Part shown: positions 239-4,493 of the stretch, one piece after another
Position numbering within the stretch: the stretch's first letter is position 1
Layout of the letters: every line of letters begins with the position of its first letter
Assembly (NCBI GenBank): GCA_018821305.1
Contig: JAHJMN010000144.1
Span: forward strand, 1-63,197
DNA length: 63,197 nt
Reading direction: 5' to 3'
DNA from: Myxococcota bacterium
Lineage (GTDB): Bacteria > Myxococcota_A > Polyangia > HGW-17
The notes under the pieces: model-generated
Told to the model about the DNA's origin: nothing
What the model saw: the letters and a program-made list of their open reading frames with translations, nothing else
Database searches by the model: none
Program-made: the position numbers and the translations under genes

Positions 239-3163
239 TCAGATTTTCTCGACTCGCTCCACTATCAGCGAAATCTCACCAAATTCACTTTTTACAGTAC
301 CACTTACAACAAAAGGTCGCAGGAAAGCCACATCATCACCGTATTTTCCATACATTTCGGGAAATAAAACTGTCTCGTAAATCGCAGTTTCGTCTTCAAA
401 TGACACAAACTCCATCATTTCGCCTTTGATGGTTGTCAAAACACGACGGGTTACAGGCCAACCCATTACAGTGACAAAACGATCGATATGATGCTCAAGA
501 TCTATTGCTTTGATGCATTGTCGACGAATAAAAGCTGGAATATCAAAGAGTACAAGGGGGTGCTCATCCGCAAGAAATCCACATTTTTCAAAAAAAAACT
601 GCCTCTGCTGACGAAGAGGAACTGGACGAGATGCTTTACCGGGAACCGGGAATTCCTCGTGGAAGAGCGTGGGTTTAGATGGGTTGAAATTATCGCGGAG
701 GGCATAATGCCAGAGGATCTCCTGTCTTGTCTGACTATTTGAAATGCTGTCCAGAGCACCAAGGTTGACTAGAAGTTCAAAATCCGCTGGAAAGGGTTGA
801 ACTCGACGAATAAAATCATCGCAATCAGTGTAGGGGCCTTCAGTTTCTCGCATGCGTACTATGCGCTTTGCCGTATCCTGCCTCAACTCACTGATGGCCA
901 TAAAACCGATTCTTAAAACGCCGCCGCTCCCGCGATATTTCCACTGACTTTCATTGACATCCGGTGGTGCAACGCGCACACCCAATCGACGAGCTTCACT
1001 GACATATGCCGAAGGGGAATAGAAACCACCCATATTTGACAAAACGGCAGCAATAAATTCTGCCCCGAAATGGGTTTTCAGGTAACCACTCTGAAATGAA
1101 ACCATGGCATATGAAGCACTGTGGGGCTTGCAGAATGAATACCCGTCAAAGGAAAGGATCATGTTCCAGACTTCAGTAATAACGTCCTCGGAAATACCTC
1201 GCGAGATCGCGCCCTCTCGAAAATCTATATAATATTCGCGTAATTTGACTTCCTTATTCTTTTTAGAAAGTATCCGCCGGAGATTGTCAGCTTTGCCTTC
1301 GGAAAACCCAGCTAAAGCCATAGCTGTGCGCGAAACATCCTCCTGGTAGCACATGATTCCGTAAGTTTCGGAAAGTATTTTCTCTAAAACAGGATGGAGC
1401 GGCTTGTATTTTTTCCCTCTCAAGCGTGCCACATACTCGTTTATGTATTTATTAGCTGCGGGTCGAATAATAGAAGAATGTATAACCAGATGTTCAAAAT
1501 CACCATGTTTTGTCTTACGCTGAAGTTGACGCATGGCAGGAGATTCAACATAAAAAACTCCCATGGTTTCCCCTCGGGCCATGAGGTTGATAGTCTCCGG
1601 ATCAAGAGCGGGGTCACGAAAAGACTCTGGAATCTCAATACCGTTCTCACGAATATTTTCAAGTGTATCTCTTATAACCGCAAGGCTTCTATTGCCAAGT
1701 AAATCAATTTTAACAAGCCCCGCCTCTTCGGTCCAGTCCTTCTCCCAGTTGATTATCGGGACCCCCTTGGGAGCCATTTCCACGGGGACTCTGGAAGAAA
1801 TTGGGTCCGGTGTAATAACCATTCCGCCGGGATGGACACTGATATACCTCGGGAAATGATTAAGCCTCTGAGCAACAGAAGTAATTTCATCCCATGGTGA
1901 ATCTAATTCGAAGGAAGTTGTCGTGTAAAAACGCTCGGACCAGGGACGCCGACCGTGGTCACGACCATGCCTCGATAGAGCCTTCTGCATGGCGGTAATT
2001 TCGCCATCGGGAATGCCAAAAGCTCTGGCAACCTCACGAACAGCACTCTTTGGTTTGAAATGTACGTGATTACAAACCATTGCGCAGTGCTCACGGCCAT
2101 ATTTTTCCATTGCGCTGTCAATAATGGCATCTCTTTCATCCCACGCAAAATCCACATCAATATCAGGAGGATCCACCCTCTCCATATTTAGAAATCGCTC
2201 AAAAAACAGATTATAACGGATGGGATCAACATTAGTTATTCCAAGTGAGTATGAAACTATGGAAGCAGCCCCACTTCCCCTTCCGCAGGTTCTGGAAGCT
2301 TTACTTACGATGTCCTGAACAATGAGAAAATAGTCTGCAAAACCCTTTTTATTTATTATATTTAGTTCGTACTCAATGCGTTCGATGACCGCTTCGGAAA
2401 GCTCCCCATAGCGTTTCATAGCTCCATCAATAGTGTTAATACGAAGGGTTTCGGCACTGTTTCCAGAAAGTCGAGGAAATATAGTGCCCTGATCCATGGA
2501 AAAATCATCGCAAAGGTCTGCAATCTGATAGGTGGCATTAATAGAAGCAGGGGAAAAGGAAAACATAGCTTTCCAGCGTTCCGGAGACGGTGGCATTTTA
2601 ACTGGAGGCGTGTAAATTGAGTTATTGTCAATGGCCCTGAGAATACAATGAACTTTGTAATCAAGTGTTGTCCCCCAGGATATTTCAGGAACAGCAACGG
2701 GAGGAATCCCCATGCTTTGAGCTCTCTTGAGGGAATCTATTCGTGGAAAGAGAAGTGGATACCAGATTAGAGTCGAAGGAGGCAAAACACTGATAATCGA
2801 CTCAATGTCCGTGATACAGACAACATCGCTTGTTATATAGGGAATAAGATCAATGGATTCAGGTTCGCTGTTTCTATCTCTGAGATTAATTGCACTCAAA
2901 AGAGAACTGAGTTGGCGAAACCCGTTGTAATTACGAGCAAACAGAATCAAATTACCGTCTTTTCGCAGGAAATTTACACCGGTTACAGGTTTTATTGAAC
3001 GCGCCCGGCATTTATCCCGGAAATCAAAAAGTCCGTAGAAATTGCCGTTATCAGCACATCCAATAGCCGGCATCCCCATGGAAGCCGCCATTTCCGAAAG
3101 TTCAGCGTTTGTCATGGCTCCATAAAGTAAAGAATAAGGTGTCCGAACGTTCAGAAAAATCAT
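239..3163 (-). CDS. dnaE: DNA polymerase III alpha-subunit-like protein (DnaE/DnaE2 family, short form)
   Basis: C-family DNA polymerase of about 974 residues. Replicative DnaE is usually ~1,160 and error-prone DnaE2 ~1,050, so this is short. The palm motif PPDIDVDF (near residues 332-339) supplies two catalytic aspartates and GLVKIDLLG the third, so polymerase activity looks intact. The N-terminal PHP domain is degenerate: the usual HVHT/HxH metal motif reads NVRT and the TDHG-type motif reads ADNG, so metal-dependent exonuclease activity is unlikely. An OB-fold region ends the protein. The ATG at 3163 is chosen because a GTG at 3169 would abut the -10 box and homologues begin close to this point. 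The isolated setting and regulated-looking promoter suggest a DNA-damage or translesion polymerase rather than the main replicase. No imuA or imuB is seen nearby. Confidence 0.85.
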   Translation of the reverse strand: MIFLNVRTPYSLLYGAMTNAELSEMAASMGMPAIGCADNGNFYGLFDFRDKCRARSIKPVTGVNFLRKDGNLILFARNYNGFRQLSSLLSAINLRDRNSEPESIDLIPYITSDVVCITDIESIISVLPPSTLIWYPLLFPRIDSLKRAQSMGIPPVAVPEISWGTTLDYKVHCILRAIDNNSIYTPPVKMPPSPERWKAMFSFSPASINATYQIADLCDDFSMDQGTIFPRLSGNSAETLRINTIDGAMKRYGELSEAVIERIEYELNIINKKGFADYFLIVQDIVSKASRTCGRGSGAASIVSYSLGITNVDPIRYNLFFERFLNMERVDPPDIDVDFAWDERDAIIDSAMEKYGREHCAMVCNHVHFKPKSAVREVARAFGIPDGEITAMQKALSRHGRDHGRRPWSERFYTTTSFELDSPWDEITSVAQRLNHFPRYISVHPGGMVITPDPISSRVPVEMAPKGVPIINWEKDWTEEAGLVKIDLLGNRSLAVIRDTLENIRENGIEIPESFRDPALDPETINLMARGETMGVFYVESPAMRQLQRKTKHGDFEHLVIHSSIIRPAANKYINEYVARLRGKKYKPLHPVLEKILSETYGIMCYQEDVSRTAMALAGFSEGKADNLRRILSKKNKEVKLREYYIDFREGAISRGISEDVITEVWNMILSFDGYSFCKPHSASYAMVSFQSGYLKTHFGAEFIAAVLSNMGGFYSPSAYVSEARRLGVRVAPPDVNESQWKYRGSGGVLRIGFMAISELRQDTAKRIVRMRETEGPYTDCDDFIRRVQPFPADFELLVNLGALDSISNSQTRQEILWHYALRDNFNPSKPTLFHEEFPVPGKASRPVPLRQQRQFFFEKCGFLADEHPLVLFDIPAFIRRQCIKAIDLEHHIDRFVTVMGWPVTRRVLTTIKGEMMEFVSFEDETAIYETVLFPEMYGKYGDDVAFLRPFVVSGTVKSEFGEISLIVERVEKI

Positions 3164-3169
3164 CAGCAC

Positions 3170-3197
3170 ATAATACCTTACATTTGTAAGGTGTCAA
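3170..3197 (-). promoter_or_regulatory. sigma70-type promoter with perfect palindrome between -35 and -10 (SOS-box-like)
   Basis: Read on the minus strand, TTGACA (3197-3192) is followed by a 16-bp spacer and TATTAT (3175-3170). The whole spacer is a perfect inverted repeat, CCTTACA-AA-TGTAAGG. A repressor bound there would block RNA polymerase. Its TTAC-N4-GTAA core resembles the TTAC-N3-GTAA LexA box described for Bdellovibrio. The expected transcription start, about 7 nt past the -10, coincides with the ATG at 3163, so the mRNA may be leaderless. Confidence 0.7.
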
Positions 3198-3235: not shown

Positions 3236-4336
3236 TTACTCTGCCATGAGATCCCGGGTAATCCGAATATCGTTTTCAATCGACTTTACAACATTAATTA
3301 TACGAGGGTCAAAATGTTTGCCACTTCCTTCGTATATAATTCCAATAGCTTTCTCATGAGTCATGGGTTCTTTATATGGTCTTCTAGACCGTAGAGCATC
3401 ATAAACATCCACAACTGCCATAATTCTCGCAGAGAGTGGGATCTGTTCCATCGTAAGCCCTTGAGGATATCCGCTCCCATCCCATTTTTCATGATGGCAT
3501 TTGGCGATCTCTATTCCCATCTTTATAAACGTGTTTTTAGGATACTTTGAATGCACTTCTTCAAGAGTTCTGGCCCCCAATGCTGCATGAGTTTTCATTG
3601 TTTCAAACTCTTCCGGAGTTAATTTCCCTGGTTTGAGGAGAATTGCGTCGGGAATTCCAACTTTGCCAATATCATGGAGAGGGCTTGCATGGTATAGGTT
3701 TGCAAGAAAGTCTTCATTGATCTGATGACGAAAATTCTCATAAGAAGCGAGTTTCTCACCGATCATATGACATAACGTTTGCACACGCTCAATATGTTTT
3801 CCAGTGTCATCATCTCGACTTTCCGCGAGTTTTGCTAAAGCCGCAATAGTAGCGATTTGAGACTCACTGATCTCCTTGACCTGAGCCATTACCATCTGCT
3901 CCAGAAATTGATTCCTCTCTGCCAGATCCTTCTGAAGTTTGCGGATCCGAAGGTGAATGTCTACCCGGGCTATAAGTTCAGTAACCTGAAAGGGCTTGGT
4001 AATATAATCGACAGCACCATGTTTGAAAGCCTTCACTTTACTGCCCAGATCTTTCTCACCACTGAGAAAAAGAATTGGAATATCCTTGATACCCATGCGA
4101 TCCCTGATGGATTCTGCAACATCGAATCCATTCATATCAGGCATGTTGATGTCAAGAATGAAAAGATCGGGAATAAATTCAAGCAATCTTGCAAGAGCCT
4201 CAACCCCACTACTAAGCTGGGTTATAACATACCCCCGCCGTTTCAAAAGCTCTCCAAGAAGTTCAAGGGACTCCAGTTGATCATCAACGATCATTACATT
4301 CGGAGTCCATCCAATTTCCGCTACTTCACCAGTCAT
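3236..4336 (-). CDS. response regulator with HD-GYP domain (cyclic-di-GMP phosphodiesterase type)
   Basis: RpfG-like two-domain cytoplasmic protein. The N-terminal receiver domain (about residues 10-125) has the phospho-acceptor aspartate in LFILDINMPDMNG and the conserved lysine in YITKPF. A helical linker follows, then an HD-GYP domain with HDIGK, HHEKWDGSGYP and DVYDALRSRRPYK. In this family the domain hydrolyses c-di-GMP to GMP or pGpG, so the protein probably couples a histidine-kinase signal to lower c-di-GMP. The second ATG (4336) is preferred over 4342 because GAGG lies 7 nt upstream of it. No cognate kinase is adjacent, so the partner is unknown. Confidence 0.9.
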   Translation of the reverse strand: MTGEVAEIGWTPNVMIVDDQLESLELLGELLKRRGYVITQLSSGVEALARLLEFIPDLFILDINMPDMNGFDVAESIRDRMGIKDIPILFLSGEKDLGSKVKAFKHGAVDYITKPFQVTELIARVDIHLRIRKLQKDLAERNQFLEQMVMAQVKEISESQIATIAALAKLAESRDDDTGKHIERVQTLCHMIGEKLASYENFRHQINEDFLANLYHASPLHDIGKVGIPDAILLKPGKLTPEEFETMKTHAALGARTLEEVHSKYPKNTFIKMGIEIAKCHHEKWDGSGYPQGLTMEQIPLSARIMAVVDVYDALRSRRPYKEPMTHEKAIGIIYEGSGKHFDPRIINVVKSIENDIRITRDLMAE

Positions 4337-4493
4337 CAGCATACCTCAATTCAAACTCAGCAGTTTATTTTCCATAAACAAATGGAAGCGTTCTGGCTCA
4401 AATAAAATAGATTGAAACTTCAAAATATCTTGAAATTTAAAGAAAAAAACACCAGAAAAGCTCTGTCCTTTTAACCGAAAACGGTCGGCATTT

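Follow-up and report, generated by a model that had tools for sequence, protein, structure and literature searches.

A palindromic box filling the spacer of the dnaE2 promoter is a probable LexA operator in a family of Myxococcota

We observed that the promoter of a dnaE2-type polymerase gene in a Myxococcota genome carries a dyad, CCTTACAAATGTAAGG, between its -35 and -10 hexamers, and that copies of this box stand upstream of imuB, lexA and a DUF72 gene. Judged from sequence comparisons, the box very probably serves the family of this bacterium as its SOS (LexA) operator, at which LexA would bind, repress and, upon DNA damage, permit induction. A sequence-only reading of the window (the whole stretch of 63,197 nucleotides analysed here) had suggested a lineage-specific SOS box; this is supported by the copies at imuB and lexA, with weaker ones at the recA operon.

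Table 1. Features of the dnaE2 locus (positions in the window)
Feature	Position	Strand	Remarks
dnaE2-type error-prone DNA polymerase, 974 aa	239..3163	minus	PHP metal site degenerate; PPDIDVDF kept
dnaE2 start region	3163..3165	minus	ATG read 3163-3161, A at 3163; from sequence and orthologue alignment
-10 hexamer TATTAT	3170..3175	minus	16-nt spacing from -35
Proposed LexA operator CCTTACAAATGTAAGG	3176..3191	minus	whole 16-bp promoter spacer
-35 hexamer TTGACA	3192..3197	minus	window sequence; 6/6 in promoter scan
Response regulator with HD-GYP domain	3236..4342	minus	upstream neighbour of dnaE2

The dnaE2 product matches the DNA polymerase III alpha families (finger, HHH and PHP domains). 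Metal-binding PHP enzymes carry histidines at positions where this protein has LNVRT and ADNGN, and its catalytic PPDIDVDF is intact. The initial description of a PHP-degenerate C-family polymerase was thus borne out, the enzyme being of the DnaE2 type with the PHP metal ligands lost. It is the second C-family polymerase of this genome, the housekeeping DnaE (1213 aa) being encoded on contig C158. As it fails the cut-off of the NCBIfam error-prone DnaE model NF004225 (516.9 vs 939 bits), we place it in a divergent DnaE2-like subgroup outside the curated error-prone subfamily. The HD-GYP response regulator gene ends 38 bp before the -35 box of dnaE2, a neighbour which shows that dnaE2 stands apart from imuB and DUF72 here.

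On the minus strand, from 3197 to 3163, the DNA upstream of dnaE2 reads TTGACA-CCTTACAAATGTAAGG-TATTAT-GTGCTG-ATG. The promoter scan gave this site 11/12 with a spacer of 16, the top of four promoter-like sites in 1.8 kb. The box consists of two fully complementary 7-bp arms and a 2-bp centre, AA. It does fill the spacer, as had been noted from the letters, but since the central AA is not self-complementary it is a dyad and not the perfect palindrome claimed. At this site the arms extend to 8 bp, with a pairing between the final A of TTGACA and the initial T of TATTAT. As the ATG lies 7 nt past the -10 box, the dnaE2 mRNA is predicted to have no leader or almost none, the transcription start being itself a prediction. 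A later start codon is unlikely, since orthologues begin at the same residue in the alignment. The imuB and DUF72 genes, unlike dnaE2, have leaders with GGTGG or GGAGG.

We derived a search consensus, CCTWACANNTGTWAGG, from the dnaE2 and imuB sites alone (lexA was not used) and searched the whole 5.22-Mb genome, a draft of 216 contigs that is 97.7% complete. There were only two exact matches, at dnaE2 and imuB, both translesion-polymerase genes. The sole one-mismatch matches were upstream of lexA, the DUF72 gene and a DUF3795 gene (families by Pfam), so that all five sites with at most one mismatch stand in front of a gene. As a null we used 40 simulated 5.2-Mb genomes, generated by an order-4 Markov model for which 221 kb of the genome served as training sequence. 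These contained no exact match (2 observed) and, at up to one mismatch, a mean of 0.95 and a maximum of 3 (5 observed). There was no excess over the null at two mismatches (20 vs 22) or three (288 vs 338); weak sites, including the one at the recA operon, therefore cannot be called by score alone, and the regulon visible by score is small. These counts also bear on whether the dyad arose by accident inside a strong promoter. Promoter-like hexamers by themselves occur at the expected frequency in this stretch, which would suit such an origin, but an exact copy occupies the same promoter position at imuB where none is expected in the genome, the DUF72 copy has a single mismatch, and the box is conserved in relatives. 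We regard the probability of a chance origin as negligible.

Upstream of imuB the sequence is TTGACA-CCTAACATGTGTAAGG-TAAAAT, an exact consensus in a promoter position identical to that at dnaE2, while the DUF72 gene (CCTGACATATGTTAGG), the DUF3795 gene (CCTTATATATGTTAGG) and lexA (CCTTCCAAATGTTAGG) each have a one-mismatch box. At dnaE2, imuB and DUF72 the box is the exact spacer between TTGACA and a -10-like box, and at DUF3795 it lies between TTTACA and TTATAA. This promoter-embedded layout is common to the four genes; the lexA box, unlike the others, lacks the flanking TTGACA and -10 box. When the combined promoter-operator pattern was searched in eight family genomes with at most one mismatch, it was found here only at dnaE2, imuB and DUF72, and in G001 only at the DUF72-imuB-dnaE2 operon and a gyrI-like gene; gyrI (sbmC) belongs to the SOS genes of E. 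coli.

The layout of the box is constant, with two 7-bp arms, a 2-bp centre and equal spacing at every listed target. As read from these sites, the conserved unit is CCTWACA-N2-TGTWAGG and not TTAC-N4-GTAA, the core named in the sequence-only reading; the lexA and imuB copies both lack an intact TTAC-N4-GTAA. We rejected TTAC-N4-GTAA or TTACANNTGTAA as a working motif. Eleven of the 12 exact TTACANNTGTAA sites in the genome lie inside reading frames, and the short core thus defines no regulon.

In this genome lexA is present once and recA twice, and Y-family polymerases are encoded by two genes. The proposed site search at lexA, recA and imuB gave the exact site at imuB and the one-mismatch site at lexA, whereas the recA operon had weaker copies only. 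In our genome and in G001, a two-mismatch site, CCTTACTTTTGGAAGG, lies before the recA operon, in the 3' end of cinA, with a score at background level. The six codons at this site are identical between the two genomes (6/6), as compared to 38/82 at conserved residues gene-wide. Related sites occur about 1.2 kb before recA in G005 (CCTTTCAAATGTTCGG) and G003 (CCTTTCATTTGTTCGG), and no recA-operon site was found in G002. We treat the recA operon as a probable target; in LexA regulons a site at recA is frequent, though not universal. The gene between cinA and recA (L042:4045-5373) codes for a 442-aa protein without Pfam match, and G001 has a similar-sized ORF there. We saw no convincing box in the upstream regions of recA2 or dinB. 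The second RecA (336 aa; L045, contig C88) is encoded behind a 128-aa ORF without Pfam match, with no such box before it. Myxococcus xanthus likewise has two RecAs (PMC7029660).

The identity of these targets, along with the form of the box, is relevant to another possibility, that the palindrome is the operator of a repressor of the BlaI/MecI/CopY type. Boxes of these repressors have a TACA-N2-TGTA core, and the core TTACA-N2-TGTAA is of that form. However, no Penicillinase_R (PF03965) protein was found in the 97.7%-complete genome (control genomes were positive in 7/14), and the box stands at lexA, imuB, dnaE2, DUF72 and, probably, the recA operon, not at beta-lactam or copper genes. Such a repressor is, in our estimate, highly improbable.

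We further evaluated the box in relatives (G001 is of the same genus, and G002 and G003 are of the same family). A one-mismatch box stands upstream of lexA in our genome, in G001 and G002 (CCTTTCAAATGTTAGG), in G003 (CCTTTCATATGTTAGG) and in G005 (CCTTCCATATGTTAGG), with weaker related forms in G006 and G007. DUF72, imuB and dnaE2 form one operon behind a single box in G001 (CCTAACATATGTTAGG), G002 (CCTTACATATGTTAGG) and G003 (CCTAACGCATGTTAGG). Here the three genes are on three contigs with one box each, and the flanks that are visible hold unrelated genes. Since each of the three boxes has a sequence of its own, they are unlikely to reflect a duplicate in the assembly.

The single LexA of this genome (L016:1486-2121, minus strand) has, at the level of residues, the Ala98-Gly99 (AAG) cleavage site and the catalytic Ser133 (GDSM) and Lys170 (TVK). 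The recognition helix, KAPS-VHEQL, is invariant in the family; the class (Myxococcus-type) LexA has STNGVNDHL there, with one residue more. Class members with the STNGVNDHL helix have Myxococcus-type boxes at lexA, and it is by such boxes that the class resembles Myxococcota. A tree built from 76 LexAs, rooted at the midpoint for display only, separated the family LexA from the Myxococcus-type clade with 100/97 support. It grouped the family LexA with LexAs beside DUF72-imuB-dnaE2 cassettes of other phyla, and also with the second LexA present in family f11. The fork joining it to the nearest cassette LexAs is weak (87/6), which makes replacement, as opposed to simple divergence, a tentative reading. 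In three f11 genomes (G074, G063 and G051; L122, L123 and L124) the resident Myxococcus-type LexA has lost its self-cleavage residues (GDSM to GDAM, TVKY to AVRY) and should not be cleavable; the second LexA in these genomes has its self-cleavage residues intact. A published model holds that a diverged LexA, duplicated or imported, retakes the regulon once the primary LexA is lost (PMC8565304). The LexA pattern in our family, as far as sequences can tell, fits this model.

These LexA comparisons also help in weighing whether the box could belong to a different regulator of DNA-damage genes, for example of the phage or AraC/GyrI type, that also controls lexA. In G001 and G002 the box targets include a GyrI-like gene, and our genome encodes an AraC-GyrI fusion regulator (L033:1462-1520, contig C114) with a two-mismatch box, CCTAACATATGTAATT, 39 bp upstream. 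Against this, the box is kept upstream of lexA across the family, as LexA autoregulation predicts. In f11 the second LexA and dnaE2 have in common a palindrome related to the box, CCATACATWTGTATGG, and at least two class genomes that keep the Myxococcus-type LexA have, in front of dnaE2, a box of the Myxococcus type instead (CTGAACATAGGTTCAG in G054 and CTGAACATACGTTCAG in G023). We therefore consider a different regulator unlikely, and LexA remains the protein that we would place on the box.

When we compared the box with known systems, it was distinct from each of them. The LexA box of Bdellovibrio bacteriovorus is TTAC-N3-GTAA, as quoted in PMC8565304. Both are short palindromes with TTAC and GTAA half-site letters, and the Bdellovibrio one is a LexA operator; ours differs by its N4 spacing, its added conserved CC/GG flanks, and the loss of the TTAC/GTAA pair from the lexA and imuB copies. 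The box had been described as near but not identical to that of Bdellovibrio, and while the difference is real (N4 vs N3, and the flanks), the nearness is superficial. Going by the title of Campoy 2005, as cited in PMC8565304, LexA reportedly does not repress the canonical SOS genes of Bdellovibrio. The Myxococcus xanthus SOS box, CTRHAMRYBYGTTCAGS (PMC9705874), is of the same length class, has similar central ACA/TGT-like letters and also has dnaE2 as a target. However, in our box CCTWACA/TGTWAGG replace the outer CTGAACA/GTTCAG arms, and the dnaE2 site has no GTTCAG arm.

The genes behind the box resemble lexA2-imuA-imuB-dnaE2, a damage-inducible mutagenesis cassette (PMC3919608, PMC6511836). 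Both combine an inactive Y-family polymerase with DnaE2, are contiguous or split, and the known one is LexA-regulated. Unlike that cassette, ours has no imuA, a DUF72 TIM-barrel gene is in its place, ImuB is short, and the genes are split in three with a box at each. The imuA-less polY-dnaE2 operons of the Kyrpidia and Geobacter types are similar in that a Y-family protein is joined by DnaE2, ImuB-C or both, lexA is often present and the genome has no imuA, but a standalone ImuB-C, not DUF72, is reported for them (PMC6511836). DUF72 has been reported near polB2 operons (PMC11791011).

The ImuB found here (385 aa) lacks the catalytic acids, having HINV for HIDMD and GGHIFLD for DEAYLD, and keeps the clamp motif QLSLF. 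For ImuA, no searched genome passed the cut-off, and the listed weak matches in our genome and its family are RecA proteins. Among 80 named loci with close DnaE2 relatives, 43 have DUF72 upstream of imuB, in most cases no more than 100 bp away, and 21 have lexA upstream of DUF72. The order lexA-DUF72-imuB-dnaE2, with DUF72 in the place of imuA, is widespread in Desulfobacterota, Planctomycetota, Spirochaetota and other MAGs (examples are L152:3026-5001, L163, L180 and L186). Cassettes of some spirochaete MAGs have related boxes upstream of DUF72, 28 bp before the cassette (CTATACATATGTATAG at L180 and CTATACGTTTGTATAG at L158), and these are possibly the LexA box of Sphaerochaeta-like bacteria. 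The exact consensus, which as a search pattern is biased to our own family, was absent from the cassettes of other phyla, and most Desulfobacterota loci had no common box.

A predicted model of the DUF72 protein (pLDDT 94.7) was compared with solved structures. DUF72 proteins were nearest, followed by many xylose-isomerase-like TIM barrels; a UV-damage endonuclease was among the matches, tied with sugar epimerases. Since the barrel matches are generic and the endonuclease and epimerases tie, no DUF72 function follows from the fold. Our literature search found no paper linking DUF72 with imuB or dnaE2.

The mechanism that we propose would start with a LexA dimer bound to CCTWACA-N2-TGTWAGG. Since at dnaE2, imuB and DUF72 this site makes up the spacer of a sigma-70-type promoter, bound LexA should occlude RNA polymerase completely. 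RecA filaments formed upon DNA damage would trigger self-cleavage of LexA at Ala98-Gly99. With the repressor gone, DnaE2, ImuB (catalytically dead) and the DUF72 protein would be released at the same time as a translesion mutasome, in which we infer that the three proteins act jointly. The separate promoter-operator copies would keep the dispersed genes co-induced. More tentatively, and with some doubt on our part, the Myxococcus-type LexA may have been lost and a cassette-travelling LexA may have gained control of the entire SOS network, including recA, through an operator of its own; the cassette would then have split with its embedded operators kept, and DUF72 would replace ImuA as a functional part of the mutasome.

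LexA boxes are known to jump in evolution, and the retaking route has few clear cases (PMC8565304). This lineage is a candidate case, with the class having the Myxococcus-type box at dnaE2, f11 having both LexAs, and our own family having the second kind of LexA only, and a box of its own that is also seen at lexA and probably before the recA operon. The findings also tie DUF72, an uncharacterised TIM-barrel family, to SOS translesion synthesis, as it is clustered with imuB and dnaE2 in several phyla and has its own copy of the proposed operator where the operon is broken.
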